Shown: positions 49,244 through 64,000 of the stretch, piece after piece
Layout: each line of letters opens with the position of its first letter
How positions within the stretch are numbered: the stretch's first letter is position 1
Source of the DNA: Bacteroidales bacterium
GTDB taxonomy: Bacteria; Bacteroidota; Bacteroidia; Bacteroidales; F082
Assembly (NCBI GenBank): GCA_017531225.1
Contig: JAFXLL010000008.1
Location: forward strand, 1-64,000
Reading direction: 5' to 3'
DNA length: 64,000 bases
Translations under genes and position numbers: made by a program
The notes under the pieces: generated by a model
Database searches by the model: none
What the model saw: the letters and a program-made list of their open reading frames with translations, nothing else
Told to the model about the DNA's origin: nothing

Positions 49244-49355
49244 GTTGGTCGCGGACACGGAGTGAAAAACCAGTGGATTATCAAGACGTAAGGGGCGGGT
49301 TTCGGCACGTTCCCCCCAGCGATAACAGAAAGCCCCTCTATTTTGAGGGGCTTTT
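49244..49355 (+). ncRNA. Candidate small RNA of about 110 nt
   Basis: Between a perfect promoter and a strong terminator there is no ORF of note. The transcript would open with GTTGGTCGC (49244-49252), which pairs with GCGATAAC (49319-49326), enclosing a GGGG...CCCCCC hairpin around 49291-49318. A terminator hairpin AGCCCCTC/GAGGGGCT (49331-49352) with a T-run follows. I do not recognise the family; it lacks the SRP GGAAG motif and tmRNA features. A 6S-like or antisense role is possible. Confidence 0.6.
49329..49355. terminator. Bidirectional terminator shared by the small RNA and the nuclease gene
   Basis: The stem AGCCCCTC/GAGGGGCT with loop TATTTT is flanked by AAA and TTTT. The stop codon of the minus-strand gene (49338-49340) lies in the hairpin. 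Confidence 0.85.
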
Positions 49356-49802
49356 GGTATTACGTTTTCTTAAGCTTTTAAATGCCAGGCTTTTGTTTTT
49401 CTTTCTTATTTCTTCAACATAATAATAGGTGTCACCGATTTGTTTGGTGTACTTTAAGATGGTGTTACGGTGCGATATGTCTTTTTGGGGCGATATCGAA
49501 ACGCTATCCCTTTCTTTGATGATTAATGGAACCATCAAATAATCTTCAATTGATAAAGACTTTCGATCATTGCTTTTTGAGCCATGCCGATTTTCGGCAT
49601 GTTGTATACCGGAAGTCTCAATTACGTGTTTGAATCCGCTTAGGTCAATGCCATGTTCGGCAGCAAGTTTCATTAGCTCATCATCGATGGTCTCGTCAAT
49701 GATACAAAACCTATAATCACAGGTGGTTCCAATGAGATTGACTAGTTCTGCAAATGAGATCTTTGTTCTTTTGTCTTTGTTGAATGGTTTCTTTGAGTCC
49801 AT
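49338..49802 (-). CDS. Putative phage-type barnase/EndoU/colicin-E5-like nuclease (PBECR-like)
   Basis: This 154-aa soluble protein has GFKHVIETSGIQHAENRHG, with histidines spaced as in EndoU/barnase-like RNase toxins, then LSIEDYLMVPLIIKERDSVS, TILKYTKQIGDTYYYVEEIR and a basic end LAFKSLRKRNTKS. This order resembles the nuclease domains at the ends of phage polyvalent proteins. Free-standing copies may be toxins; no obvious antitoxin gene is adjacent. A TATCTTTG box lies at 49835-49828 on the minus strand. The gene sits between the two copies of the structured RNA, suggesting insertion or local rearrangement. Confidence 0.6.
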   Translation of the reverse strand: MDSKKPFNKDKRTKISFAELVNLIGTTCDYRFCIIDETIDDELMKLAAEHGIDLSGFKHVIETSGIQHAENRHGSKSNDRKSLSIEDYLMVPLIIKERDSVSISPQKDISHRNTILKYTKQIGDTYYYVEEIRKKNKSLAFKSLRKRNTKSPSK

Positions 49803-50338: not shown

Positions 50339-50728
50339 ATGGGAAAATCAATTACTACAGCTAAATCCTTTTTTGCGTTTATGCTTTTATTGATGTTGGT
50401 TTCGTGCCAGTCTGGCGCTTCTCGATTTGTGAATAAGTTTGAGAGATTTATTGAAAGGGTAGAATCTAACGCTTCTTCGTATTCGCAAGTGGAATGGGAG
50501 CAGAAAGACGAACAATTTCAGGAGTTTGTTGATGATTATAAAGAATTAAAAAAAGATCTTTCCCCAGATGAGAAAAGAAAAGTGGGGGAATTAACAATTC
50601 GATATTATAAAGCCAGAGTTAAATCTTTTGGTTTTGGCGTCTTGGGCGAAATTGGTGGTTGGCTGGAGTACATACAAGGCGTTGCGGATGAAATTAAAGA
50701 AGATGTGAAAAACTTAAATCTAAATTAA
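50339..50728 (+). CDS. Small helical lipoprotein, first gene of the tubulin/Ter operon
   Basis: This 129-aa protein has the SPII signal FFAFMLLLMLVSC. The mature part is helical: a coiled FVNKFERFIERVESN helix, a DEQFQEFVDDYKELKKDL helix, and a small glycine-rich segment (FGFGVLGEIGGWLEYIQG) that may contact membrane. Function is unknown. One base separates it from the next lipoprotein gene. It is the first ORF after the structured leader. Confidence 0.75.
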   Translation: MGKSITTAKSFFAFMLLLMLVSCQSGASRFVNKFERFIERVESNASSYSQVEWEQKDEQFQEFVDDYKELKKDLSPDEKRKVGELTIRYYKARVKSFGFGVLGEIGGWLEYIQGVADEIKEDVKNLNLN

Positions 50729-50729
50729 T

Positions 50730-52166
50730 ATGAAGAAGTTTGATAGTAAAGTTATTAATCTGATAAAAGGATGCCTTTTTTCTGGAATCCTTTTATTCTT
50801 AACAGGTTGTACGCTGAATTATGAGATTGACGCAGAAAATAATCTTCCTTTATTAATTGGAAGAACCAAGCAATGGCACCCTGATGCTTTGGATCAATCC
50901 AACGGAGCCATCATGTATGTCGACGCATCTACGGTTTTTAGCGACGCAGAAAGATACAGCGATATTTACAAGACGATGAAGTCTCAGATGTACCAGTATA
51001 TTGGCACCTTGGTTTTCATCAAAGGACAGGAATTTGAGGCTACAGAATGCAACCGTCAAAAGCAGGCTCTTTTCAATGCATTGGAAAACATGAGAGCCAT
51101 TGTGGAAAATTCTGATCCATTTAATTTTGCTAATATTCAAAAAGCCGTAGAAAACATCTGTGATGGCAATAGACAAGGTATGATTATAACTGATTTTGAG
51201 TTCTATGCGCCAGATGCCTTCGGCAGAATTCAAGGTCCTCACGACATGGACCCATATCTGTCAGAATCATTTATAAAATGGTTGAATAAAGGATACCAAA
51301 TTGATATTCTTACCGAACCATATTATGAAAAATACAACCGTAAGGATTATCTGAAAAAACGTTTCTATGTCTTTTTCACCGATCCCGATGACGAAGCTCC
51401 AATTAGTGCTACGATGATTGGTCAAGTGAGAAAGTACGTGGTAAATGGCGATCCTACTATTGGGCATTGTAATTTGGTAACCTTGAGAAACACCGATTTG
51501 GGTATGTCGAGAGTGAATGAATCCAATAGCTGCGACAGCGTGATCTCTATTACAATTTATCCACTAGAAAGTTGCCCGGGTGAATTAAACGCAATAGATG
51601 CCACTTGGGAGGACATCAAGCAATATGTGATGAAATTGGATAAATACAACAAACCAATGAAGGATGACGAAGAAGGCCCATTGCCTCTCATCGATGGATT
51701 AGTTGTCAACAATGGAATTAATTATTCTGTGTCCAACTTGTCTTGGCATGCCACTAACATCTCGAAGCCTTTCATGGTAGAACAGGAAAAGGAGGATTCG
51801 TTGACGTTTGAAACGATGGAAGAATGGGATTTGACGGATGCATTCATGGTTGAGATGAATGAGAACAATGAGGTCTCGGTGTACTTGACTCCCAAAATCC
51901 TCACCTCGAAGCACCTTTATGGTGAAAAGGAAGGTTTTAGAGGCAACTTGATTCGTTTGGATATTGATATTGATCAATGCACGGTTCATGAATTTGATGA
52001 GGCGGCATTCCAATGGAAGTCATTGGGGAACAATTACCAAGGCAGGGATGCCGTCTGTGTCTCATTAAGCATTGACAATGCACTCAAAGACATCAGCGTG
52101 GTTCCCTCTACAATGGATAGAAAACATCTGTACACTGTGTTCATTCAAACCCAGTCAATCGAATAA
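50730..52166 (+). CDS. Large lipoprotein of unknown fold, possibly vWA-like
   Basis: This 478-aa protein has the SPII signal (GILLFLTGC). After a 25-residue spacer comes NGAIMYVDASTVFSDAERYS, then a helical region, then GMIITDFEFYAPDAFG. A hydrophobic strand ending in D-x-S followed later by a hydrophobic strand with T-D is reminiscent of a von Willebrand A fold, but a full MIDAS cannot be confirmed. Many acidic residues suggest metal binding. The second half is beta-rich. It would be periplasmic or surface-anchored and is co-translated with its neighbours. Confidence 0.7.
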   Translation: MKKFDSKVINLIKGCLFSGILLFLTGCTLNYEIDAENNLPLLIGRTKQWHPDALDQSNGAIMYVDASTVFSDAERYSDIYKTMKSQMYQYIGTLVFIKGQEFEATECNRQKQALFNALENMRAIVENSDPFNFANIQKAVENICDGNRQGMIITDFEFYAPDAFGRIQGPHDMDPYLSESFIKWLNKGYQIDILTEPYYEKYNRKDYLKKRFYVFFTDPDDEAPISATMIGQVRKYVVNGDPTIGHCNLVTLRNTDLGMSRVNESNSCDSVISITIYPLESCPGELNAIDATWEDIKQYVMKLDKYNKPMKDDEEGPLPLIDGLVVNNGINYSVSNLSWHATNISKPFMVEQEKEDSLTFETMEEWDLTDAFMVEMNENNEVSVYLTPKILTSKHLYGEKEGFRGNLIRLDIDIDQCTVHEFDEAAFQWKSLGNNYQGRDAVCVSLSIDNALKDISVVPSTMDRKHLYTVFIQTQSIE

Positions 52167-52198
52167 CAACAATAAAATATCAATTAATACTTATCATT

Positions 52199-52603
52199 AT
52201 GAATATGTTTTCAATGGCAGTTATCGGGTCAAAGAAAGAACTCGAGGCTCTGATTTCAAACACCTATTTCTCATCCTTAGCCTTTGCGGTTGTGGCAATA
52301 TTAATTGCACTCGTCATCGCCACGCTAATCAAATGGCAAGGTCATCCCGACAATTCTTATAAGACTAGAAGAGCTTGGTGGATAATCATAGGCGTGGTTT
52401 TTCCAATTGCTTTCTGGGCCATCAATTATTTTTATGTGGGCAAATACATCGAAAAAGCATCTTGGTCGGCAGATTTCATGAAGGCGAACATCTTCGCTGC
52501 TCTTATCGGCCTCGGTCTCTATTTTGTGGTTTCCATTATTACTATGCTTATCGTTCGTAGCTCCAAATGGGGTAGCATTTTGGGAAAGACCAAGAATAAA
52601 TAA
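52199..52603 (+). CDS. Three-TM membrane protein
   Basis: This 134-aa protein was not recognised. Hydrophobic segments are YFSSLAFAVVAILIALVIATLI, AWWIIIGVVFPIAFWAINYF and ANIFAALIGLGLYFVVSIITML, and the C-terminus is basic. The short loops leave no catalytic domain, so it may be an anchor or part of a channel for the complex encoded downstream. It lies 32 bp after the lipoprotein gene and 21 bp before the tubulin-like gene. Confidence 0.7.
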   Translation: MNMFSMAVIGSKKELEALISNTYFSSLAFAVVAILIALVIATLIKWQGHPDNSYKTRRAWWIIIGVVFPIAFWAINYFYVGKYIEKASWSADFMKANIFAALIGLGLYFVVSIITMLIVRSSKWGSILGKTKNK

Positions 52604-52624
52604 ACACTTTAAAGCATTAGAATT

Positions 52625-54241
52625 ATGGCAAAAGATATTTTTGTAATAGGGATAGGCGGCACGGGAATGCGCTGCATCGAATCCTTCATTCATTTATGTG
52701 CTATTGGCATGTTTGACGATACAAATGTCAATTTGCTGGCATTGGACACCGATAAGGACAATGGTAATTTCAGACGTTTGAGAGATCTGAAGGAAGCTTA
52801 TTTGAAAACCAAGGGAGTGGGCAAACAGCATACCTCCTTAAAGAACACCTTCTTCTCTGCCAAAATCAATTACTATCAGTTCAGTCCGGATTATTCAAGG
52901 CAATCCACTTTTGATCAGCTGTTTGATTATAGTGGGTTGAACTTTAAGGACCCCGACAAAGCTGCTATTGCCGACTTGCTTTTTACAGACAATGCTAAGT
53001 CCTTCGATTTGAAGCATGGCTATCGTGCTCAAACTCACCTTGGCAGTATGCTGATGTATCATTCTATCATCGAAGAAATCAAAAATGGCGATACCAATAG
53101 TGATCTCCGCCGTTTTATTCAAAAACTCATTGATGCATCGGTTGGACATCCGAGAGTATTTATTTTGGGCTCGGTGTTTGGAGGCACGGGTGCTTCATCC
53201 ATCCCAATTATTCCCAAAGCCATTAAGGACGCAGCCAACCTGATGTCACAAGCTACCGACATTGAGAAAAATGCCTATTTCGGAGCTACTTTGTTGACAG
53301 CCTATTTCTCGTTTGCTGCGCCTACTCAGGATGAACTGGAAAAACAAAAGGTTATTGCCACTTCCGACAAGTTTGCGCTTAATTCGCAAGCAGCCATGAT
53401 GTTCTATGAAGCTGACGAAACCGTGAAAAAGACATACCAGCGATTGTATATGATGGGAACTGAAGGCGTTGACTGGAAACCTGGAAAGGTGAAGGATCAA
53501 GTGATTACTGGAGGAGACAAGCAAGAAAACGACTGCCATTATCTTGAATTGCTGTCGGCCTTTGCTGCTTGGCATTTCTTTAACTCACAAGAAACAGGCA
53601 TTGTGGACAAACTACAAGGATTGGCCACTCTTAAGGCAAACAAGCAGCTGGAATATGTTTATAGGACATTTGACGACAGCGGCAAGATTAGCTTTGTTGA
53701 TTTTGTCAATGATGACAGCAATGAGAATAACAGCGAAAAGAAAGAGTTTGCCAAGAAAATAGGTATGTTCACGGCCATGACAATGCTTGAGTATAAGTAC
53801 AAATTCTTTGAACAAGCTCAAACGGGCGAGCTGAAAGTCAACAAGATTGAAGGATATGAGGATATAGAAAAGGTTGAAATCGATAGTTTGAGAGAATATA
53901 TGAATTTATTCCATTTCTCCATCGTCAACAATGCGGTTAAAGAAGGCTGGTTACGTCAACTTCACAATTCAGCTGGCGGCGGCGACAAATTCCTGCTTAA
54001 CGCCGAACTTTTCGGATGTGCAACCCCGAAGGAGTTGGATAAGATAGATTTCAACAAATTACTGTATATCAAGGGCTCTGACTTTGAGGCCAATGCCTTC
54101 AAAATTGGATTGCTCTCCAATTACATCAATATGTTCAGGGATGAATTCATAAAAACTCAGGATTCAACGGAAGTTTCAAACAAAATCGAGAAACTTATTA
54201 AACGAGTTTATGACGCTTTATGCAGTTTGTATCATTTTTAA
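52625..54241 (+). CDS. Tubulin/FtsZ-like GTPase family protein (Tubulin_2-like)
   Basis: This 538-aa protein starts MAKDIFVIGIGGTGMRCIES, the glycine-rich first loop of the tubulin/FtsZ superfamily. It continues with NLLALDTDKDNGNFRRL (the D-T-D segment after strand 2) and has the tubulin signature as ILGSVFGGTGASSIPIIPKA (G-G-T-G at 186-189). This is the pattern of bacterial tubulin-like proteins distinct from FtsZ. Filament formation is not proven by sequence. It lies immediately upstream of an actin-fold ATPase gene (12-bp gap). The C-terminal 200 residues are helical and specific to this family. Confidence 0.8.
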   Translation: MAKDIFVIGIGGTGMRCIESFIHLCAIGMFDDTNVNLLALDTDKDNGNFRRLRDLKEAYLKTKGVGKQHTSLKNTFFSAKINYYQFSPDYSRQSTFDQLFDYSGLNFKDPDKAAIADLLFTDNAKSFDLKHGYRAQTHLGSMLMYHSIIEEIKNGDTNSDLRRFIQKLIDASVGHPRVFILGSVFGGTGASSIPIIPKAIKDAANLMSQATDIEKNAYFGATLLTAYFSFAAPTQDELEKQKVIATSDKFALNSQAAMMFYEADETVKKTYQRLYMMGTEGVDWKPGKVKDQVITGGDKQENDCHYLELLSAFAAWHFFNSQETGIVDKLQGLATLKANKQLEYVYRTFDDSGKISFVDFVNDDSNENNSEKKEFAKKIGMFTAMTMLEYKYKFFEQAQTGELKVNKIEGYEDIEKVEIDSLREYMNLFHFSIVNNAVKEGWLRQLHNSAGGGDKFLLNAELFGCATPKELDKIDFNKLLYIKGSDFEANAFKIGLLSNYINMFRDEFIKTQDSTEVSNKIEKLIKRVYDALCSLYHF

Positions 54242-54253
54242 TCATTTGAAGTT

Positions 54254-57200
54254 ATGGGAAAAGCAAAATTAATAAAAAGCACAGGAAGTTCAAAAAGTAA
54301 TCCTCAAGGCCATTGGTATATACATGATGAAATAAAGCCTTTCATTCAGGGTATAGAAGCTGGTGACTTGGATGAAAAACAAGTGAATAGTACTCTTATC
54401 TCTGGAGTGCCAAGTCCATGGGCAAGACCTAAGCTTTTTTGGTTCGCCTTTGACTATAAGAAAAATGAAGATGCGAACATTGCGACATCTGGATTGTTTG
54501 GATTCTATAAAACTTTGATCGAAGAATGGCAGGGATTGTTGGCGGCTATTGCATTGTTTCCAGATAGAGTGACTTTTTCGAACCCTATCAGTTTAGATGA
54601 CAAGGGAGATTTATATGATATCCCGAGTGCATTTGGCCGTATGCTATTGGATGAAAAAGAGTTTTGGATTGATCAACGGCAAAGGGAAATCAATCCCCAA
54701 GAAAAGCCTTTTATTCAATTAATCAAGTATAATGGACAAGTGATTGGAGGCACCTCGCCCTTCTCGATTTTTTTCCCAGGTGTTGAGTATACAGGTCTGA
54801 CAAATACAGGAGACCTTCCTTGGTATACCGGAGGGAAGTTTACCGACCCTATGCCATATTTACGGAATGACATTGACAAAATTCAAAAATTATATCTTTT
54901 CATTAAGAATATCAATTCCAATTTTGAGGAGTACAAGAAGGCGCAAGAAAGGATTGAAAATAATACTAATCATGTATATCATCCTGATTTACAAGGTCTT
55001 CAAAGGTTTTTGATGAATTGGCAAAGAGATCTTGGTAAACGTTTTGATCTTCAGGATAATGGTACAGTTGCAAAGTATACTAATCTAAGAAATCCTTATG
55101 CAACGCTTCTGGTTTCCAACCAGAAAGTGTATCTATTGAAAACAGGAGACCTTACTTTCCAAAAGCCAGATGACGAGGCAATGATAGTGAAGGTGTTGAG
55201 CGATTTGCAGAATGTGCTCAAAGAAGGCAAAAAGATTGTCGGTTGGTACGAATCGTCCGATTACACGCAGCCACTTTCCAAATCAGCAGTTTATTATTTG
55301 AAGGTGAATGATTTGCGAGATAGGGAAAACCAAGTCAAGTATTTCGCTTTGCCTTTGAGCATTGAAGGTCTGCAGATGTTTTCGAAAAAGCTAGGTGCCC
55401 TTGTGTCGCAAAACAACCCCAATTTTAGTATTGAAGGAAAGATTAGTGATTCGGGCAAACTGATTGTGGATCTTACAGTTACCATTGACAACCAGCCTTA
55501 TAAGTTGAATTCCAAGGAATATGACATCGAATGGGCCAACAATGGAAAGAAAGTGATCATGTGGCCAAACTTTGTTTCGGACAAATGGGATGCCTATTAT
55601 CTGTATTCTGAATTTCCGTCAAATCTGTCAGGTATGAAGTTTGTGCCTTTCTACAAGCATTGCTATGATGGACAGATAATCACCGTGCAACGTCCTGACG
55701 GAGCGAATTTAGTTCAGAAAATAGTGTATTCCGACAGTTTGGATGATATGAAGACTGATGCCCAATTGGATGTGAATAAATTGGTGGAATATCCTCTCAA
55801 CATGGCTTCAGAAGATAAACATAAATATGAGGTTATCAAGTCGAATTGTCCTATTGCTGGTCTTGAGATTAGGATTGAAAATGCCGGACGCTCCGAAACG
55901 GCCGGTTACTTGATGGTAAAGAATCCAGGTGATGAATCAATGGGCCAACATAAGATTGTTGATTATACTACTCAAAACGTCAATCAGGCTGCAAATGTCG
56001 GAATCGACTTTGGTAGCAACAACTCATGCGTGTACTACACTACCAGCACTGGCACTCATCCTATTACTTTTGAAAATAGGCGTTTGGCTTTGGTGGGGAT
56101 CGAGTCACCCAGCGGATCTATTGCAGAGATGGATGAATTGCTGTTTTTCTCCAATGAACCTAGTGGAAATGGTCAAATTAAGTCTTGGCTTCATGAGCAT
56201 GATGAGAGGTATATTGGCGCCAATAGAGACAAGGAAATAGCAGGAGGTGTCGCTGTAAATGAACGGAATATCCGTATCAAGACAATGACACGTCAAATTA
56301 TTGAGACCCAAGCAGGTGTGTTGCATTATAATATGAAATGGTTATCCGACACGAGAGGCATAAGCAAAAAGACTGCCTTCTTAAAGTCGATTTGGCTCTC
56401 GGTATGTGCAGATTTGTACGCTCAACAACTTGCACCATCAGAAATAAGTTGGTCTTTCCCAAGCTCGATGACGCCAACTGATTTGAGCCAATATCGTAAT
56501 ATCTATAACGCTCAGTTACCTAACATCACTCCCATATTGGACGATCAGAAAAACAGGATTCGCGTTCCGAAAACCACAGAATTGACAGAGTCCGAGGCTG
56601 TTTGCAAGTATGCCTTAAGTCAAAAATATGGTCTTGATAGAACTATGTTTTTGGGCATTGATGTCGGAGGTAGTACGAGTGACATCCTTCTTTTGGCTAA
56701 AAACAGTAATCTAAACAACGAGGAGACTCTCTTCAGTCAAAGTTCAGTGAGAATCGCTGCCGGCGTGTTTTTTGATGCCGTTATCAAATCTCAACATTTT
56801 AGGAAGGCTATTTTCGAGTTTCATGAGTCGCAAAAAACCATTCATGTGGAGAATATCAAAGACATCTTGTCGAACGGAGAAAAAGCACCTTTCTATTTGA
56901 ATAGTGTTTTTGATCAGTTAACACCAAACAATTCTTCCGAGTTCTATAGTTGGATTAGCAGAGAGGCGTCGTTCGTGTATGCCATTCCTGCCTATGTAAC
57001 AGGATTGTTGCTGTTTTACGCAGGGAAACTGTGCTCCAAGACGATTCGTGAGAACAATCTTACCAGCATTCAGGAAGTGCATTTGATGCCGTTCGGTAAA
57101 GGTGGAAGATTGTTCCACTGGTTGCAGACCAATCCTGGAGTGACACCGACCACGCAATTCTATCAAGAATGCTTCAAGAAAGCTTTTGGTGAGGGAAGCG

Positions 57201-57706
57201 AAAACATTAAGTTGGTATACCGTACCGATGTCGTGAAAGACAATAAATCGGAAGTCTCAATGGGTTTGGTAGCCAACCAAACTTTGGTGTTCAATCCAAT
57301 TATTCGAGAGAAGTCAGACATTTTCGCTGAAAATGGAATCAAATTCCTCAACAATGGCAAGCTTGAAGTGCTTGATGAGAATCAAGAGGTCCTGTGCGAA
57401 TATTTTGAGAATATAGGTCGGTTTGAATTTCCTGAGAATTTGGAAAACTTCTACACCTTCCTGGAAATCTTCATTGACTTTGTCAGTCAAAAGGCAGGTT
57501 TGGTGAGGGATGTGGCTGCACTAAGGAACCGAAAGGGCGAATTGCCAAGTCTCTTGTCTGCATTTATCAGCAATGATCCTGAATATGCCAAAGCAAGAGA
57601 CAACAAGCAGCGTACGGGAATATTTGAGTATAGGTTCCCAATCTTTGTAGCAGAAGGACTGTGCTATCTTGATAATATCTTGATACCAGAAGTCTTTAAG
57701 TCGTAA
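54254..57706 (+). CDS. Large actin/Hsp70-fold (ASKHA) ATPase
   Basis: This 1150-aa protein has a unique N-terminal half (1-570) rich in beta segments with no recognised motif. It is followed by an ASKHA ATPase: phosphate 1 loop NVGIDFGSNNSCVYY (D585) and phosphate 2 loop MFLGIDVGGSTSDILLL (D803). The adenosine motif is probably the MPFGKGGRLFHWL stretch. This is the layout of SrfB-like or Hsp70-like proteins of membrane-linked operons. It is placed between the tubulin-like gene and a second, degenerate ASKHA protein. It may act as a chaperone-like motor or a filament. Confidence 0.78.
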   Translation: MGKAKLIKSTGSSKSNPQGHWYIHDEIKPFIQGIEAGDLDEKQVNSTLISGVPSPWARPKLFWFAFDYKKNEDANIATSGLFGFYKTLIEEWQGLLAAIALFPDRVTFSNPISLDDKGDLYDIPSAFGRMLLDEKEFWIDQRQREINPQEKPFIQLIKYNGQVIGGTSPFSIFFPGVEYTGLTNTGDLPWYTGGKFTDPMPYLRNDIDKIQKLYLFIKNINSNFEEYKKAQERIENNTNHVYHPDLQGLQRFLMNWQRDLGKRFDLQDNGTVAKYTNLRNPYATLLVSNQKVYLLKTGDLTFQKPDDEAMIVKVLSDLQNVLKEGKKIVGWYESSDYTQPLSKSAVYYLKVNDLRDRENQVKYFALPLSIEGLQMFSKKLGALVSQNNPNFSIEGKISDSGKLIVDLTVTIDNQPYKLNSKEYDIEWANNGKKVIMWPNFVSDKWDAYYLYSEFPSNLSGMKFVPFYKHCYDGQIITVQRPDGANLVQKIVYSDSLDDMKTDAQLDVNKLVEYPLNMASEDKHKYEVIKSNCPIAGLEIRIENAGRSETAGYLMVKNPGDESMGQHKIVDYTTQNVNQAANVGIDFGSNNSCVYYTTSTGTHPITFENRRLALVGIESPSGSIAEMDELLFFSNEPSGNGQIKSWLHEHDERYIGANRDKEIAGGVAVNERNIRIKTMTRQIIETQAGVLHYNMKWLSDTRGISKKTAFLKSIWLSVCADLYAQQLAPSEISWSFPSSMTPTDLSQYRNIYNAQLPNITPILDDQKNRIRVPKTTELTESEAVCKYALSQKYGLDRTMFLGIDVGGSTSDILLLAKNSNLNNEETLFSQSSVRIAAGVFFDAVIKSQHFRKAIFEFHESQKTIHVENIKDILSNGEKAPFYLNSVFDQLTPNNSSEFYSWISREASFVYAIPAYVTGLLLFYAGKLCSKTIRENNLTSIQEVHLMPFGKGGRLFHWLQTNPGVTPTTQFYQECFKKAFGEGSENIKLVYRTDVVKDNKSEVSMGLVANQTLVFNPIIREKSDIFAENGIKFLNNGKLEVLDENQEVLCEYFENIGRFEFPENLENFYTFLEIFIDFVSQKAGLVRDVAALRNRKGELPSLLSAFISNDPEYAKARDNKQRTGIFEYRFPIFVAEGLCYLDNILIPEVFKS

Positions 57707-57711
57707 TCGAT

Positions 57712-60429
57712 ATGGATCAGTACTTAGTGCTTTTTGTAGATGTGGAGTTTATAGCCGGTGCAATTTGCACCGGCTATGATGCTCCCCGTCCTATTCAGGT
57801 GGATGGAGAAAGCTTGATATGGCTCTATTTCTTCAACGACCCCTTTCAGCAAAGAGTCTCGTTTGGGAAAGGCTATAAAAGGCGCTACATGAATGGGGAG
57901 AGTAACTATTACGGACATTTTTTCACTCTCATAGAGAATGATGAGAATACTTTTTCTTTGCGCCATTCGGATTTCCACTATCCCGCAATCGAACTTTTGA
58001 AAGCGTCGGGGATGTTGGATCTTTGGAGAAGCCAATATGAACAAGTGACCCAAACTTCAACCGAGACTATCCCTTCTTTGTTGACTTTCTCTCCCTCAAT
58101 CTCCGACTTATCGAAACAAAGATTTGTTGACTTTGTTAAAAAGAACAATTTCGATGTCAAGTCATACACGATTCCCTTGGCTGAATTGGCTTATTTTAAG
58201 CTGTTGCAAGACGGAAAAATCAACTTGACAAATTGTCGTTCTACAATGATGCTTGAAGCTACCAATTCAACACTTCATTTCAGCAAGCTGACCTATTCTG
58301 ATAATTATTTTCTCAAAGACGGCGATGTTGAATCGTTGATAGGAAGGGGGATAGACCCAAGAAAAAGAGCTATTTGCAAATATCTTGTAGGAGAACTGAA
58401 TTCACAGCTTGGCCTCTTGTTTTCAGATGAAGAAAAGGAAAGCGAAATTGAGAGGTTCGAACAAGATGCAGCCGAATGGCTGAAAAGGTTGGAGTTGAGC
58501 ATTGACAGACCTATCCGAATCTCAGGATTGTCATTTAGGGTGGCCATCAACAATAAGAGAGATATATTGGTTAGGAAAAACGATGTCGATAATGACACAG
58601 GTAGTTACCTCCGTTATTTGTCTGACCAGTATCAATCATTTAAAGAGAATAGGTTCCCCAACGGGGTGGATTTCTGCTGCTTTGTCGGCAACTGCTTCAT
58701 CAGTGACCGAATCAAGCAACGTTTTGATGCCTTGGTGGGAGACAATAAGACCGTCTTTTTCAAAACTACAGATATTGTTGACATCATCAAATACTATCCA
58801 CGGATTAATTTGCAGCGTTATGCAGACGAAGAAAGCAGAATTCGTGAGCGTGCAAGGGCTGATGAGTTGAAACAGGCGGCCGAGAGGGAGGCTCAAAGAG
58901 CGCGGGAAGCTGCTGCTAAGGCTGAACAAGAGAGACTGGAGCAACTTGAGAGAGAAAAACGAAATAAAGAAGAGGCCGAAAAAGCCTACCAGCTTGCTTC
59001 TGACTGCGACAGGCGCAACATGCTTGAGGATGCAAAGGCTAATATCGACAAAGCGGTGTTGTTGGATCCTACCAACTTGGATTACAGGCGTTTTGCCGAC
59101 TTTATTGATGACAAAATCCAGAAGAAGCAAGGCATTGTTGAGCTATACAAAAAATATTTGTCTTTAGGTGATACGTTTTATCAGAATGGAAGCTATGAGG
59201 AGGCATTGTCAGAATATGAAAAGGCCCTGGCTGTTGATGACAATCCAAAAATAAAAGACAAGATTCTCGATTGCAAAGACAAAATTAAAAAGTTAGAGAA
59301 GAAGCGGAAGCAAATTGCGGGAATCATGAAGGAGGTCAAGTCGTCTTTAGCTCTAAAGGATTACGATTTGGCGGAGAAGAAGGTGCAAGAAGTTCTTGCA
59401 ATAGATCCCAATCATCAAGAGGCGCAAACCATGCTTGCCACTATAAGTGATGAGAAATGGAAGAAAAGCCTTCAGGTTTTGATTGACAAAGTGGACAAAG
59501 TGATCAAATCGGGTAAACTTGATGATGCGGAAGTATTGGTTGACCAATTGCTGGAATTAGATCCTGAAAACAAAAAAGGGCGTGCTTTCAAATTTCAAAT
59601 AGAAGAAGCTAAAAGCCTTGAAAAAGAGAAGCAGAAGGCAGAAGAGTTAAAACGCAAGGTGAACGAAGCCGTCACTGAAGGTGACCGCTCTATGAAAAAA
59701 GGGAATCTTGTAGCCGCTCATGCAGCATTCGAGACTGCCAAAAAGCTTGATCCCAAGAATGCCAATGTGAAAGCAAAGCTACTGGAATGTGAGAAAGCCA
59801 TAAAAGCCAATGCCTTGAAACAGAAGGTCGAATCGCTGATTGAGGAATTCAATTCATTCATGCAGCAGAAGGATCTCGACAAAGCCTATCAGCGTTGTGT
59901 TGAGTTGGAAGCGGCGGATAGCGAACATGTTGCCAAGTGGTCGAAACAAAAAGACCGTTTGAAGTTCATGGCAAATTTGTCGAATCCTCGAACCGTTAGA
60001 GCTGAATTGGCTTCCATAAAGGCTTTGGAAAGGGTTGGAAAAGTAGATGAAGCAAAACAGAAAGCCCTTGAGTTGAAGGAAGACCTGAATATGCTTGGCA
60101 TTCATGACTACGATAAGGAGTTGGATGCTTTCGGAGGGTTTTCGATAAGCCCGAAACCGGGACCTAAACCGGATCCAAAACCAGGTCCAAAACCAGGACT
60201 AAAAACAGATCCAAAACCAGCCCCGAAACCGAAACCGGATACAGGATATGGACAATCCACCCAATTGTCCGATAGGGAAATCATAAAGCGGAAAAGGGAT
60301 GTTAAAGCCCTGATTAGCCAACATAAGTTTGACGAGGCCAAATCCTCACTTGAGGCGCTGAAAAAACAAATGACAAATAATGACTTTGAGAAGTACTTCA
60401 AAGAAGAAATGCAGAAAATAGAAAAATAA
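57712..60429 (+). CDS. Degenerate ASKHA-like domain fused to coiled coil and TPR repeats
   Basis: In this 905-aa protein residues 1-365 start YLVLFVDVEFIAGAICTGY and later have STMMLEATNSTLHFSKLTY, weak versions of the phosphate 1 and 2 loops, so an actin-like fold without clear ATPase residues is likely. Residues 369-430 form a charged coiled coil (ELKQAAEREAQRAREAAAKA). Residues 430-800 are TPR repeats (GSYEEALSEYEKALAVDD, GNLVAAHAAFETAKKLDPKN). Residues 811-843 are a Pro-Lys repeat, and a last TPR-like helix pair follows. It is probably the partner of the preceding ATPase, acting as scaffold. Confidence 0.72.
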   Translation: MDQYLVLFVDVEFIAGAICTGYDAPRPIQVDGESLIWLYFFNDPFQQRVSFGKGYKRRYMNGESNYYGHFFTLIENDENTFSLRHSDFHYPAIELLKASGMLDLWRSQYEQVTQTSTETIPSLLTFSPSISDLSKQRFVDFVKKNNFDVKSYTIPLAELAYFKLLQDGKINLTNCRSTMMLEATNSTLHFSKLTYSDNYFLKDGDVESLIGRGIDPRKRAICKYLVGELNSQLGLLFSDEEKESEIERFEQDAAEWLKRLELSIDRPIRISGLSFRVAINNKRDILVRKNDVDNDTGSYLRYLSDQYQSFKENRFPNGVDFCCFVGNCFISDRIKQRFDALVGDNKTVFFKTTDIVDIIKYYPRINLQRYADEESRIRERARADELKQAAEREAQRAREAAAKAEQERLEQLEREKRNKEEAEKAYQLASDCDRRNMLEDAKANIDKAVLLDPTNLDYRRFADFIDDKIQKKQGIVELYKKYLSLGDTFYQNGSYEEALSEYEKALAVDDNPKIKDKILDCKDKIKKLEKKRKQIAGIMKEVKSSLALKDYDLAEKKVQEVLAIDPNHQEAQTMLATISDEKWKKSLQVLIDKVDKVIKSGKLDDAEVLVDQLLELDPENKKGRAFKFQIEEAKSLEKEKQKAEELKRKVNEAVTEGDRSMKKGNLVAAHAAFETAKKLDPKNANVKAKLLECEKAIKANALKQKVESLIEEFNSFMQQKDLDKAYQRCVELEAADSEHVAKWSKQKDRLKFMANLSNPRTVRAELASIKALERVGKVDEAKQKALELKEDLNMLGIHDYDKELDAFGGFSISPKPGPKPDPKPGPKPGLKTDPKPAPKPKPDTGYGQSTQLSDREIIKRKRDVKALISQHKFDEAKSSLEALKKQMTNNDFEKYFKEEMQKIEK

Positions 60430-60484
60430 ACAAATTAAATAGAATTCTGAAATATAATGTAAAACTTTTAAAATTGATTTATTT

Positions 60485-61138
60485 ATGGCAAGATTTGATT
60501 TAAACAAAGGTGAGCGTTTTCAGCTCAAGAAGAGTGAAGGATTAAGTAAAATCCAGATTAATCTGGGTTGGAAATCTGGCGCTGATTTGGATGCTTGTGC
60601 ATTCCTGTTGGGTGTGGATGGTGTTATTACGGATGATGCTGATTTTGTGTTTTACAATTCAGGAAATCGTTGTAACCCTGAAAGTTTAGTCCTTGAGCCT
60701 TTTGATAAGGCTAAATTTGGAAACAAGAAGAATTGGAGGTCGGAGACTATTCCGATTTCAAAAGATGGATCTGTTGTTGGTTCAGCCGATGATTTGGGTG
60801 ACGGTGACGATGATGGCGGTGAAGACGCTGGCGAGGAAATGCACGTCATTCTCGACAAAGTCAATCCTCAAATTACAGAAATCGTTTTCTGCGTGACCAT
60901 TTATCATGGTGATGAGGACGGTACTACCTTCGGTAAGGTTCGTGAGCCTTTTATCTCTGTTGTAAACGAGGAAAATGATGAAGAGTTATGCCGCTATAAT
61001 TTGAAAGAAAAATTTGCCAATGAAACGGCAGTTGTCGCTGGTAGTCTTATTTGCGACGAGGAAGGCGAATGGTCCTTCGAAGCCGTTGGCAAGGGCTATG
61101 AAGGCGGAATGCAGACATTAATCGATATTTATGCTTGA
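60485..61138 (+). CDS. TerD family protein
   Basis: This 217-aa protein of the TerD (tellurium resistance/stress) family binds Ca2+ in known members. It starts ARFDLNKGERFQLKKSEG, the family N-terminal motif, followed by INLGWKSGADLDACAFLLG and the DADFVFYNSGNRC strand. An unusually acidic insertion (DDLGDGDDDGGEDAGEEM) follows before the ITEIVFCVTIYHG strand, and it ends GEWSFEAVGKGYEGGMQTLI. Conserved acidic residues of the metal site appear to be present. A Ca-type P-ATPase is encoded 1.2 kb downstream. TerD proteins usually act at the membrane with TerC, which is absent from this window. Confidence 0.9.
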   Translation: MARFDLNKGERFQLKKSEGLSKIQINLGWKSGADLDACAFLLGVDGVITDDADFVFYNSGNRCNPESLVLEPFDKAKFGNKKNWRSETIPISKDGSVVGSADDLGDGDDDGGEDAGEEMHVILDKVNPQITEIVFCVTIYHGDEDGTTFGKVREPFISVVNEENDEELCRYNLKEKFANETAVVAGSLICDEEGEWSFEAVGKGYEGGMQTLIDIYA

Positions 61139-61140
61139 TT

Positions 61141-62031
61141 ATGGCAGACAATAAGAAAAAAAGTTCACGTCAATATGATTTGAACAAACCAAGTTCGCGT
61201 CATTATGATTTGGACAAACCAACAACACGCTCGTTTGACTTGACGAAAGAGCCCGAAGCTAAAGAAACCGTAGCGGCTCATACAGATAACAAATCGAAAA
61301 AACCTCAAAGGAAGATTGCCACTGTATTGGGCATTATCGTTGGAGTGTTGGCAATTGCAGCAATTTGCTATTTTGTTGCAGGCAATAAGTCCCCTAAAAA
61401 GGATCCAATTGCTCAGAATGAAGAAGTTGTTCCAAGTCAACAAGCGGCCTCGCCAGATAAACCCAACCAACCTGCTGAATCTGGTCCCACAACGACGGAT
61501 ACTCAGACTGAGACCGTGGGACAAGATGAAACGCCCGTATCGGGAGAGGTGTCTGCCCAAGGAGAAGTTTCTGGACAAGGAGAAGCATCTGGACAAGGTG
61601 AAACGCCTTCTCAAGTGAGCGATCCTTCGCAGGCCGGAACCTCTACTACTTCGGTCGAGACAACCAATCCAGAGGAGAACACAAAGCCGACGGAGACTCC
61701 TACATCTGCTGAGACTACCAAGCCGACTGAGGGCACCCAGCCCTCTGGGACTACCAAGCCTAATGAAACTGCCAAGCCTACAACGACTTCGACTTCGAAC
61801 GGTTCCGCTTCTACGACATCGAGTTCGAAATCTGTAGCATCTGGTCTGGGTGAGCCTATCATTAGTGTGGCGGAACAACAGGCACTTTGGGAAGCTCTTG
61901 ATAGCCGTGCAAAAGAGGTTATCATAGGCATTTATGGTAATGGTAAGGCAAGAAAAGATGCCTTAGGTGACAATTATTCTGAAATCCAAGCTTTGGTGAA
62001 TGCGTATTATCACACCATGTATGGTTATTAA
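61141..62031 (+). CDS. Single-TM protein with TerD-like N-terminal motifs and a C-terminal CW_7-like motif
   Basis: This 296-aa protein has an N-terminus holding three copies of an R-x-[YF]-D-L-x-K motif (SRQYDLNKP, SRHYDLDKP, TRSFDLTKE), which mirrors ARFDLNKG at the start of the TerD neighbour. One TM follows (IATVLGIIVGVLAIAAICYF, about 58-78), then a Ser/Thr/Glu/Pro-rich linker of 150 residues. The C-terminus (LDSRAKEVIIGIYGNGKARK ... DNYSEIQALVNAYY) matches the CW_7/Cpl-7 wall-binding pattern. It would tie the cytosolic Ter complex to peptidoglycan. I start it at ATG 61141; a TTG at 61135 is an alternative. Confidence 0.75.
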   Translation: MADNKKKSSRQYDLNKPSSRHYDLDKPTTRSFDLTKEPEAKETVAAHTDNKSKKPQRKIATVLGIIVGVLAIAAICYFVAGNKSPKKDPIAQNEEVVPSQQAASPDKPNQPAESGPTTTDTQTETVGQDETPVSGEVSAQGEVSGQGEASGQGETPSQVSDPSQAGTSTTSVETTNPEENTKPTETPTSAETTKPTEGTQPSGTTKPNETAKPTTTSTSNGSASTTSSSKSVASGLGEPIISVAEQQALWEALDSRAKEVIIGIYGNGKARKDALGDNYSEIQALVNAYYHTMYGY

Positions 62032-62038
62032 GTAATTA

Positions 62039-62072
62039 GGGGGCATGAAAACGATTCATGCCCCTGTTTTTC
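62039..62072 (+). terminator. Terminator of the tubulin/Ter operon
   Basis: GGGGCATGAA (62040-62049) pairs with TTCATGCCCC (62055-62064) over a 5-nt loop, followed by GTTTTT. It lies 8 bp after the stop of the CW_7-like gene. An ATG at 62045 is inside the stem and unlikely to be used. Confidence 0.9.
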
Positions 62073-62077
62073 CTATT

Positions 62078-62266
62078 ATGACTGGAATTGTTCTAAAAGT
62101 TATTGTCGCACTGTTTATTTGGTGGGTTTTGCCTTCGCTTGTAATCAAAAAGAAGAAAAGCCCCATGAAAAAATGGCTTACAGTAGTATGTGCTATAATA
62201 GGGATTCTTTTATTAGTATATGCTGGTATTGATTTGATACAAATGCTGTTTCGTGAGGGCTCATAG
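62078..62266 (+). CDS. Small two-TM membrane protein
   Basis: This protein of about 62 aa has TM segments TGIVLKVIVALFIWWVLPSLV and WLTVVCAIIGILLLVYAGIDL, separated by a KKKKSPMKK basic loop. I place the start at 62078, after the terminator. It could be a small partner of the following P-ATPase. The AT-rich gap 62267-62341 shows no clear promoter. Confidence 0.55.
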   Translation: MTGIVLKVIVALFIWWVLPSLVIKKKKSPMKKWLTVVCAIIGILLLVYAGIDLIQMLFREGS

Positions 62267-62341
62267 CGTTTTTGAAATTTCCTACATCTTTTTTATTGCC
62301 TAGGGTTTGAAAAAAAAGTTTCTATAAAATTAATTACTGTT

Positions 62342-64000
62342 ATGCAACATTATCATCACTATTCTGGCCTTAATGATGCCGAGGTGCTAGAAAGCAGAGC
62401 GAAAAATGGCATCAATGTATTGACTCCCCCTGAAAAGGAAACATTCTGGGATAAGGTGAAGGATTGTTTCAAAAATCCATTGATTATCGTCCTTATGTCG
62501 TTACTGGTGCTTTCAGTCATCGGATTTGGCATTTGGGGTAATGTTCTGCCATCTGGCATTTGGATAGGCACTGCGGTGCTGGGTGCGCTGTTGGTTTTTG
62601 GTCTCGTTGTTGCATTTTTTGGAGGTCTTGAGGATGAGCTTATCACCATTCTGATGTATGCCCTGATACTTTCTGGAGGTATTGCGTTTTACCAAGGCGT
62701 TTGGGGCGGAGAAGCAGGCTGGGGGCCATATCTTGAGCCTATTGGAATTGCTGTTGCCATATTGTTGGCTACAGGTGTTGGCTTTTTCCTTGAACGTAGT
62801 AACGAAAAGACTTTCCAGAGTTTAAACGAAGTAAATGATGACACCTTGGTGAAGGTGATTAGAAATAATAATGTGTGCCAAGTGCCGAGAAAAGATATTG
62901 TTGTCGGTGACATTGTTTTGCTCGATACAGGTGAGGAGATTCCTGCCGACTGCGATTTATTGGAATCATATAACCTGTTGGTTGACGAATCGTCGCTTAC
63001 TGGCGAGCCTCCTTGCGAGAAAACTGCCGATAGGGAAAAAGTCAGTAAGGATGCCACTTATCCAATGTATCGGATTCTGAAAGGGTGTCTTATAGTGGAG
63101 GGCTCTTGCACTGCACAGGTCATCAAGGTGGGTGATGCCACTGATTGTGGAAAGGTGTTTGAGGCTGCACAGGTCGAAGAAGGCGATCCCACTCCATTGA
63201 GTGAGAAACTGGATGGATTGGCCGATTTGATTACCAAGGCAAGTTATATTATTGCAGGATTGATTATTGTGGGTCGTCTTGCTGTTTATTTTTTCCAGGG
63301 GAATGCCAACTTCTCCGATACACTTGGATGGGTGGATTTCGTGAAATACGTGCTTGATACCATCATGATTGCCGTGACCATTGTTGTGGTGGCTGTTCCC
63401 GAAGGTCTTCCGATGGCTGTTACGTTGAGCTTGGCCTTCAGCATGAAACGTTTGATGAAGCAAAATACGCTGCCCAGAACGATGCATGCCTGCGAAACCA
63501 TGGGCGCCACTTCTGTGATTTGCACGGATAAGACGGGAACATTGACCCAAAATCAGATGAAGGTCAGCGAAACTTACTTTGCCTCACTAAAGGGAGGTGA
63601 TCTTTCGGGAGACGAAATCTCTCGATTGCTGGTGGAGTGTATTGCTGTGAATACAACGGCGAATCTGGACTTTGCTGACCCGAACAAAATCAAATCGATA
63701 GGTAGTCCTACAGAAGGTGCGGTGCTCTTGTGGCTTCACCAGCAAGGTATCAATTACCTTCCAATCAGAGAAAGGTTTAGCATTATCGATAGGCTTCCAT
63801 TCTCGACAGAATTGAAATACATGGCTACCATCGTCAAGTCAGAGGTGCTGAACCAGAAAGTGCTTTATGTTGTCGGTGCTCCTGAAATCGTGATGTCATA
63901 CACTGATGTTGCGGGAGAAGAAAAGGCGGGCTATGAGGCCAAGCTTTTAGAATATCAAGGTAAGGCGAAGAGAACCTTGGGCTTTGCTTATTTGCCATTG
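62342..64000 (+). CDS. Second calcium-type P-type ATPase, truncated by the window end
   Basis: 553 codons are visible of an expected 900-1000. It starts MQHYHHYSGLNDAEVLESRA (cation ATPase N-terminal domain), then the TM pair NPLIIVLMSLLVLSVIGFGIW and an extra hydrophobic region. The actuator motif is SSLTGEPP, TM4 is VVAVPEGLPMAVTLSLAFS, and the phosphorylated D396 is in CTDKTGTLTQNQM. It is clearly related to the ATPase at 41549 but has more hydrophobic sequence near the N-terminus. With TerD, which binds Ca2+ in known cases, it suggests calcium handling by the operon. The 3' part lies outside the window. Confidence 0.92.
   Translation, partial: MQHYHHYSGLNDAEVLESRAKNGINVLTPPEKETFWDKVKDCFKNPLIIVLMSLLVLSVIGFGIWGNVLPSGIWIGTAVLGALLVFGLVVAFFGGLEDELITILMYALILSGGIAFYQGVWGGEAGWGPYLEPIGIAVAILLATGVGFFLERSNEKTFQSLNEVNDDTLVKVIRNNNVCQVPRKDIVVGDIVLLDTGEEIPADCDLLESYNLLVDESSLTGEPPCEKTADREKVSKDATYPMYRILKGCLIVEGSCTAQVIKVGDATDCGKVFEAAQVEEGDPTPLSEKLDGLADLITKASYIIAGLIIVGRLAVYFFQGNANFSDTLGWVDFVKYVLDTIMIAVTIVVVAVPEGLPMAVTLSLAFSMKRLMKQNTLPRTMHACETMGATSVICTDKTGTLTQNQMKVSETYFASLKGGDLSGDEISRLLVECIAVNTTANLDFADPNKIKSIGSPTEGAVLLWLHQQGINYLPIRERFSIIDRLPFSTELKYMATIVKSEVLNQKVLYVVGAPEIVMSYTDVAGEEKAGYEAKLLEYQGKAKRTLGFAYLPL

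Follow-up and report, generated by a model that had tools for sequence, protein, structure and literature searches.

An operon joining a tubulin-like protein, an actin-fold ATPase and TerD in Bacteroidales, with exchangeable output modules

We analyzed a 64,000-nucleotide (nt) stretch of a Bacteroidales genome (GTDB family-level lineage F082; GenBank assembly GCA_017531225.1, contig JAFXLL010000008.1, positions 1 to 64,000, forward strand), hereafter the window, near whose end a cluster of genes encodes a tubulin/FtsZ-like protein, an ATPase of the ASKHA (actin/Hsp70-fold) type and a protein of the TerD family. An earlier reading of the sequence alone (the original prediction) had described a tightly packed plus-strand operon and suggested that it codes for a membrane-anchored filament or a stress/defence machine. 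The open reading frames (ORFs) of the window agree with the layout: eight plus-strand genes occupy positions 50339 to 62031, with spacings of -4 to 55 nt. As set out below, the interpretation as a whole is partly supported.

An eight-gene operon around a tubulin-like protein and an actin-fold ATPase

The two central genes encode TubL (52625..54241, 538 amino acids [aa]) and the ASKHA ATPase (54254..57706, 1150 aa). TubL carries the motifs IGGTGMR and FGGTGAS. It matches the Pfam families Tubulin (PF00091, E = 1.3e-5) and Tubulin_2 (PF13809, E = 7.5e-5), in both cases with a score short of the curated cut-off, but 19 and 17 of 23 TubL family members, respectively, match them at E ≤ 0.01. The glycine-rich GTP-binding loop is present, FGGTGA being invariant in 18 sequences and FGGTGASSIP in 23. 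Searched against the Protein Data Bank (PDB), the single TubL sequence had no match under E 0.1, and its profile had none at E ≤ 1. Judged from its sequence, TubL is a probable member of the tubulin/FtsZ superfamily, as originally predicted, and would have a tubulin fold.

The ASKHA protein consists of an N-terminal region of about 570 aa followed by an actin/Hsp70 fold. It has no Pfam match, and a single-sequence PDB search gave nothing below E 0.1; its profile reaches Hsp70s (best E = 0.0042), and an AlphaFold2 model shows a two-lobed actin/Hsp70 fold at residues 577 to 1015. Residues D585/G587, E779 and D803/G805/G806/D810 are invariant in 36 sequences, which confirms the loops at D585 and D803 from which an ASKHA ATPase had been called. 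We take D585/G587 and D803/G805/G806/D810 to be the phosphate-1 and phosphate-2 motifs. A SrfB identity was set aside, there being no Pfam match in the protein and no supporting paper found. Fold matches alone cannot tell filament formers from chaperones. It is conceivable, with somewhat less than an even chance, that TubL acts as a non-polymerizing GTP switch and ASKHA as a chaperone of the Hsp70 kind, so that no filament would form; against this, Pfam recognized no Hsp70 substrate-binding domain in ASKHA. The pair may form a filament, as the original prediction suggested.

Upstream of the core lie two lipoprotein genes and a membrane protein gene. The first, lipo1 (50339..50728), encodes a 129-aa lipoprotein with a DUF6565 domain (PF20203, E = 1.7e-9) and is an optional member, its homologues preceding lipo2 in some loci. 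The second, lipo2 (50730..52166, 478 aa), has a vWA-like domain at about residues 50 to 233, with D65, D155 and E157 invariant in 26 sequences, and a C-terminal beta-sandwich at 255 to 477; it and ASKHA are the two proteins for which structure models were made. Its comparison with three TerY-type vWA proteins gave a probability of 2.4%. The small membrane protein (52199..52603, 134 aa) holds a conserved position directly 5' of TubL.

Downstream, A2 (57712..60429, 905 aa) combines a conserved N-terminal domain of about 400 aa with TPR repeats. Pfam confirmed the repeats of what had been described as a degenerate ASKHA-TPR scaffold; the degenerate ASKHA part is unsupported, since a profile comparison of A2 with ASKHA gives a probability of 0.9%. 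TerD proteins occur widely in gene clusters linked to stress and conflict. The one encoded here (60485..61138, 217 aa) scores 156.7 bits against PF02342, far over the cut-off of 25.3, and has relatives with solved structures (2kxt and 3ibz). The last gene of the operon (61141..62031) encodes what we call the anchor, 296 aa counted from the ATG: an N-terminal tail with three TerD-like motifs, a transmembrane segment and a C-terminal CW_7 wall-binding domain (Pfam, E = 9.4e-10), in keeping with the expected transmembrane protein linking cytosol to wall. The anatomy of the operon and its recurrence, described below, lend good support to a membrane-anchored machine.

A terminator-like hairpin follows on the same strand (62039..62065; 11 pairs, 6 of them G-C, then a T run). 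The region holds 16 hairpin-plus-T-run sites, compared with 11.3 ± 3.5 in shuffles, and this one has the longest stem. Beyond it, also on the plus strand, begins the gene of a PMCA-type Ca-ATPase (62342..64000, continuing beyond the window end; complete protein 963 aa). On the other side, just 5' of the operon and divergent from it, a minus-strand gene at 49338-49802 encodes PBECR3, a phage-type Barnase-EndoU-ColicinE5/D-RelE-like nuclease. Searches of the window genome found a single gene each for TerD and TubL. Neither PHROGs nor PADLOC gave a system-level match for the eight operon proteins; the only notable matches were those of TerD to phrog_5698 and of the anchor's CW_7 end to lysis families.

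A recurrent core with exchangeable output modules

TubL was detected at E ≤ 0.001 in 23 of 200 relatives' genomes, and full-length ASKHA in 22, every one of them within the TubL-positive set. The remaining genome (G137) has a completeness of 70%, and a contig end cuts through its TubL. ASKHA profile matches of any strength occur in 171 of the 200 genomes; the weak ones listed are mostly ORFs of about 460 aa around the phosphate-2 motif, which are probably FtsA.

Of 574 confirmed TubL relatives, the best 80 served as named loci for describing neighborhoods; they are therefore biased to close relatives. ORFs in these relatives were called by a simple longest-first script, by which the TubL ORFs of L066 and L085 were lost. 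ASKHA is the next gene after TubL in 70 of the 76 named loci with a TubL ORF and room for a neighbor. Upstream of TubL, 54 of the 69 loci with room have both lipo2 and the membrane protein, 6 have one of the two and 9 have neither. The same genes in the same order are met in dozens of genomes, more than chance would give, and the homologues do co-occur across genomes as the original prediction implied. These loci come from taxa that include Prevotellaceae, Bacteroidaceae, Porphyromonadaceae, Muribaculaceae, Sphingobacteriaceae, Chitinophagaceae and Flavobacteriaceae. Two loci recorded outside Bacteroidota (L061 and L090) are probably mis-binned; the TubL of L090 is identical to a Bacteroidales TubL. 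Six loci (L064, L070, L073, L084, L087 and L088) have TubL without an adjoining ASKHA gene, and in genomes G156 and G155, apparently the sources of L064 and L073, the ASKHA gene sits on another contig.

What lies downstream of this core differs among loci. Counting only ten ORFs from TubL onward, we could read the module in 56 loci, while 15 further loci with ASKHA, which end within 7 kb of TubL, were set aside. TerD stands behind ASKHA in 37 (34 with a labelled anchor), DO-GTPase2-like and GAP1-like proteins in 9, and neither in 10; the 9 and the 56 include L085, whose module was entered by hand (8 and 55 without it). TerD and the GTPase were never found together downstream of the core among the 56. 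The families of the GTPase module were identified in L126 (PF19993, E = 8.9e-7, above cut-off; PF20013, E = 1.4e-4, just below it). In three of the ten loci with neither module, a gene for a Ser/Thr kinase, a PP2C or both lies close by, as assigned by Pfam in L065 and L076 and by likeness in L077; the kinase gene of L065 is on the opposite strand, facing the PP2C and A2 genes. A quick tree built from 76 TubL sequences calls for 6 changes of the TerD label, at least 4 of them forced by well-supported branches; thus, the core is stable and the output is exchanged.

Two further observations concern TerD-like genes. L129, counted as a GTPase locus, has two TerD genes together with vWA (TerY-like) genes on the minus strand about 2 kb upstream of its core (L129:1649-6003). 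Divergent TerD-like proteins (start VTLKKKVTLRRK) occupy the TerD position at L053:17241-17819 and L060:17607-18794; that of L053 has no Pfam match, and the two possibly represent a new TerD subfamily.

Alongside TubL and ASKHA, the more remote operons of this kind, which come mostly from the same genus as the window, also encode a membrane protein and a vWA-like lipoprotein. Of 12 such sister loci with downstream sequence (L038, L040-L049 and L052, several of them close relatives), 10 continue into genes for two further proteins, one MotA/ZorA-like and bearing a long helical tail, the other MotB/ZorB-like, as in L038:7639-18582; L041 and L047 are the two without the pair. PADLOC ZorB models match all five sister loci tested (best E from 1.6e-9 to 1e-16), and ZorA models gave one good match (1.7e-11), two weak ones and none in two loci. 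The ZorB-like proteins whose sequence was inspected contain SYSDLMT or SYVDVMT. The same core with a motor module supports reading these operons as envelope machines. Beside some of the sister operons lies an ORF with an RGHLAPAGD stretch (L049:18838-19635; the same ORF cluster in L040, L048 and L052), which strikes us as reminiscent of NucA-like endonucleases and may be a candidate effector or a chance neighbor.

The family is rare in its phylum: among 395 genomes drawn evenly from it, 13 match at E ≤ 1e-10, and 3 of these, the window's own included, do so at full strength. Such patchiness would suit a dedicated anti-phage system whose core, as in Zorya, detects a phage entering at the wall and whose output module then kills the cell or halts its growth; so would modules common to predicted conflict systems (DO-GTPase2 and GAP1-N2) and the ZorA/ZorB-like proteins of the sister systems. 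Yet domain scans found no nuclease or other clear effector domain in the window operon, the PBECR3 gene being nearby on the other strand, and ASKHA was not found in phage or plasmid collections. We regard a defence role as possible and, on balance, somewhat doubtful.

An anchor tail that resembles the start of TerD

An anchor gene lies behind TerD in 36 loci, including the window, and the cytosolic tail of the encoded protein is similar to the N-terminal residues of TerD. The window tail carries QYDLNK, HYDLDK and SFDLTK, compared with RFDLNK in TerD; across loci, one to four copies of the motif are found per tail. The outer end of the anchor differs, being CW_7 in the window, OmpA in Pedobacter and TSP3 repeats in L131.

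We compared tails with TerD starts in the 21 of the 36 loci, window included, that were retained as non-redundant, their last TerD proteins being under 80% identical; one TerD start of L063 is mis-trimmed. Cognate pairs score 36.3 and non-cognate pairs 25.0, and none of 20,000 permutations scored as high. Shuffled tails score 19.6, and five other 21-residue segments of TerD score 16.8 to 19.4. The best-matching TerD 16-mer begins within the first 12 residues in 17 of the 21 loci, and the anchor is the best match among labelled operon proteins in 17 of 21 (one tie). TerD starts fall into three sequence types (A, B and C). Tail and TerD agree in type in 36 of 36 loci, a descriptive count, since the type patterns were written after the tails had been inspected; one of two TerD copies in L105 is unclassified, and the permutation test is independent of types. 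The window and L053 illustrate the covariation: their TubL and ASKHA proteins are 77% and 74% identical, their TerD proteins 21%, and their tail types differ accordingly. Within type A the pairing persists, with 1 of 20,000 permutations as good.

Because the motif in the tail is that of the N-terminal residues of the cognate TerD, the tail probably binds TerD where TerD's own N-terminus packs, occupying the site of the N-terminal strand. Within type B the pairing signal is absent (11,868 of 20,000 permutations as good), and in the window A2 scores 28 and the anchor 25; there the evidence is the threefold motif. The likeness might instead be ancestry only, the anchor gene having acquired the beginning of terD through a duplication that left it with a functionless tail. 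The two genes are adjacent and begin alike, such copies can come from unequal recombination, and the lack of finer pairing in type B fits this view. A relic would not be expected, however, to hold several internal motif copies, as many tails do, to match its own TerD in each of three distinct types, or to show finer matching within type A, although gene conversion could mimic all three features. Overall, we consider a functionless relic improbable and a tail that contacts TerD the better account.

A proposed machine and its relation to known systems

The Ca-ATPase gene that was predicted to follow the operon encodes a protein above the TIGR01517 cut-off (566 versus 507 bits). Its recurrence beside such operons supports grouping it with the operon, though the terminator-like hairpin separates the two here: in 12 of the 80 named loci a PMCA-like ATPase gene lies on the operon's strand and at most 1 kb away, and all ATPase matches of those 80 are so placed. 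Under random placement outside the core, P is about 3e-9, a figure that ignores the near-duplicates L090, L092 and L103. Outside the 80 loci, the ATPase of L040 is 6.2 kb from the core. The window has a second PMCA-type Ca-ATPase on the plus strand 6.1 kb upstream of the operon (41549-44278; TIGR01517, 680 bits), 47% identical to the first. PMC8123226 states that Klebsiella TerD binds Ca (Pan 2011, as reported there) and cites an effect of a Streptomyces terD gene on Ca homeostasis. Because of the Ca-ATPase linkage and this Ca binding, a Ca-controlled step in the TerD machine is our preferred guess.

The same facts could indicate a housekeeping-type device for envelope or Ca homeostasis under Ca, metalloid or redox stress, with no defence role: the TerD findings of PMC8123226 agree with it, the Ca-ATPase neighbor recurs, and the operon has no clear effector. 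Rarity, patchiness and repeated swaps of the output module would be unusual for homeostasis genes, and we think this reading rather unlikely. Distribution and module sharing lean to defence and the lack of a clear effector leans to homeostasis; we rate the two purposes about equal. The stress or defence role named in the original prediction is a conjecture.

We give an even chance to the proposal that the operon encodes one envelope-spanning nucleoside triphosphatase machine with a wall-tethered TerD output. In such a machine, lipo2, facing the periplasm with its vWA-like domain, would sense the envelope, and the small membrane protein would couple it to a cytosolic core of TubL and ASKHA that assembles or disassembles with nucleotide turnover. 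A2 would be the adaptor between the core and the output module, here TerD, a member of a Ca-binding family, kept at the inner membrane by a single-span anchor that would grip peptidoglycan through CW_7 or, in other lineages, OmpA. As a decoy or donor strand, the anchor tail could tether, cap or release TerD. An envelope breach (phage entry, a pore-former or wall damage) would admit Ca and so alter TerD and the core, with local sealing or growth arrest as the outcome, and the nearby Ca-ATPase would reset Ca.

More tentatively, the operons may share a general chassis, in which a tubulin and an actin-fold ATPase coupled to the wall carry interchangeable outputs (TerD with Ca-ATPase, DO-GTPase with GAP1, kinase/PP2C or a ZorAB-type ion motor) and the anchor recruits TerD through copies of its N-terminal strand. 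If true, this would give TerD, whose mode of action is unresolved (PMC8123226 makes a similar statement), a molecular role in a Ca-controlled, wall-tethered strand-exchange assembly.

Several known systems resemble parts of this operon. The FtsZl1 operons, predicted to encode a membrane-remodelling complex (Makarova & Koonin 2010, PMC2875224), also centre on a divergent FtsZ-like protein, joined there to vWA, kinase, GTPase, OmpA and membrane proteins. FtsZl1 has a coiled coil and a helical C-terminal domain, and TubL, at 538 aa, is shorter than Huta_2051 (1051 aa); Hsp70, DnaK, TPR and "tellur-" do not occur in the main text of that paper, and FtsZl1 as described there comes without mention of an ASKHA partner, TerD or a Ca-ATPase. 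The GTPase-centric GAP1-N2 systems (Kaur et al. 2020, PMC7159879), a prediction as FtsZl1 was, combine GTPases with tubulin homologues and HSP70, and with vWA, kinase/PP2C and membrane or wall domains; DO-GTPase2- and GAP1-N2-like proteins occur in nine TubL loci, and no DO-GTPase or GAP1 gene was matched among the window operon proteins. In the sections of that paper available to us, the overview joins tubulin and HSP70, the GAP1-N2 section presents them as separate, non-overlapping themes, mainly of Firmicutes and Actinobacteria, and TerD appears a single time, listed with the effectors of VMAP (MoxR-vWA) systems as a nucleotide-binding domain. The TerD-anchor module, the tail imitation and the Bacteroidota core are not described in those sections.

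The classical ter operon (terZABCDEF) shares a TerD family protein, whereas none of the eight window operon proteins is TerB or TerC by Pfam. The Zorya motor depends on peptidoglycan binding and ion flow (PMC11890865) and is likewise an inner-membrane machine that binds the wall, with ZorA/ZorB-like counterparts in our sister systems; PADLOC found no ZorA/ZorB match in the eight window proteins. In the open-licence literature we found no paper on the combination of tubulin, ASKHA ATPase and TerD, and no link of Zorya-type motors to a tubulin and actin-fold pair. Pairing tubulin with an HSP70-type protein is not new as such, since the overview in PMC7159879 describes it; the new parts are the TerD-anchor module, the imitation of TerD by the anchor tail and the module exchange. 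The covarying tail points to a specific, testable protein-protein contact for TerD, and the core offers a two-cytoskeleton bacterial machine for study. Through the exchange of modules on this tubulin and actin-fold core, Ter proteins are connected with the predicted GAP1 GTPase systems and with motors of the Zorya kind.

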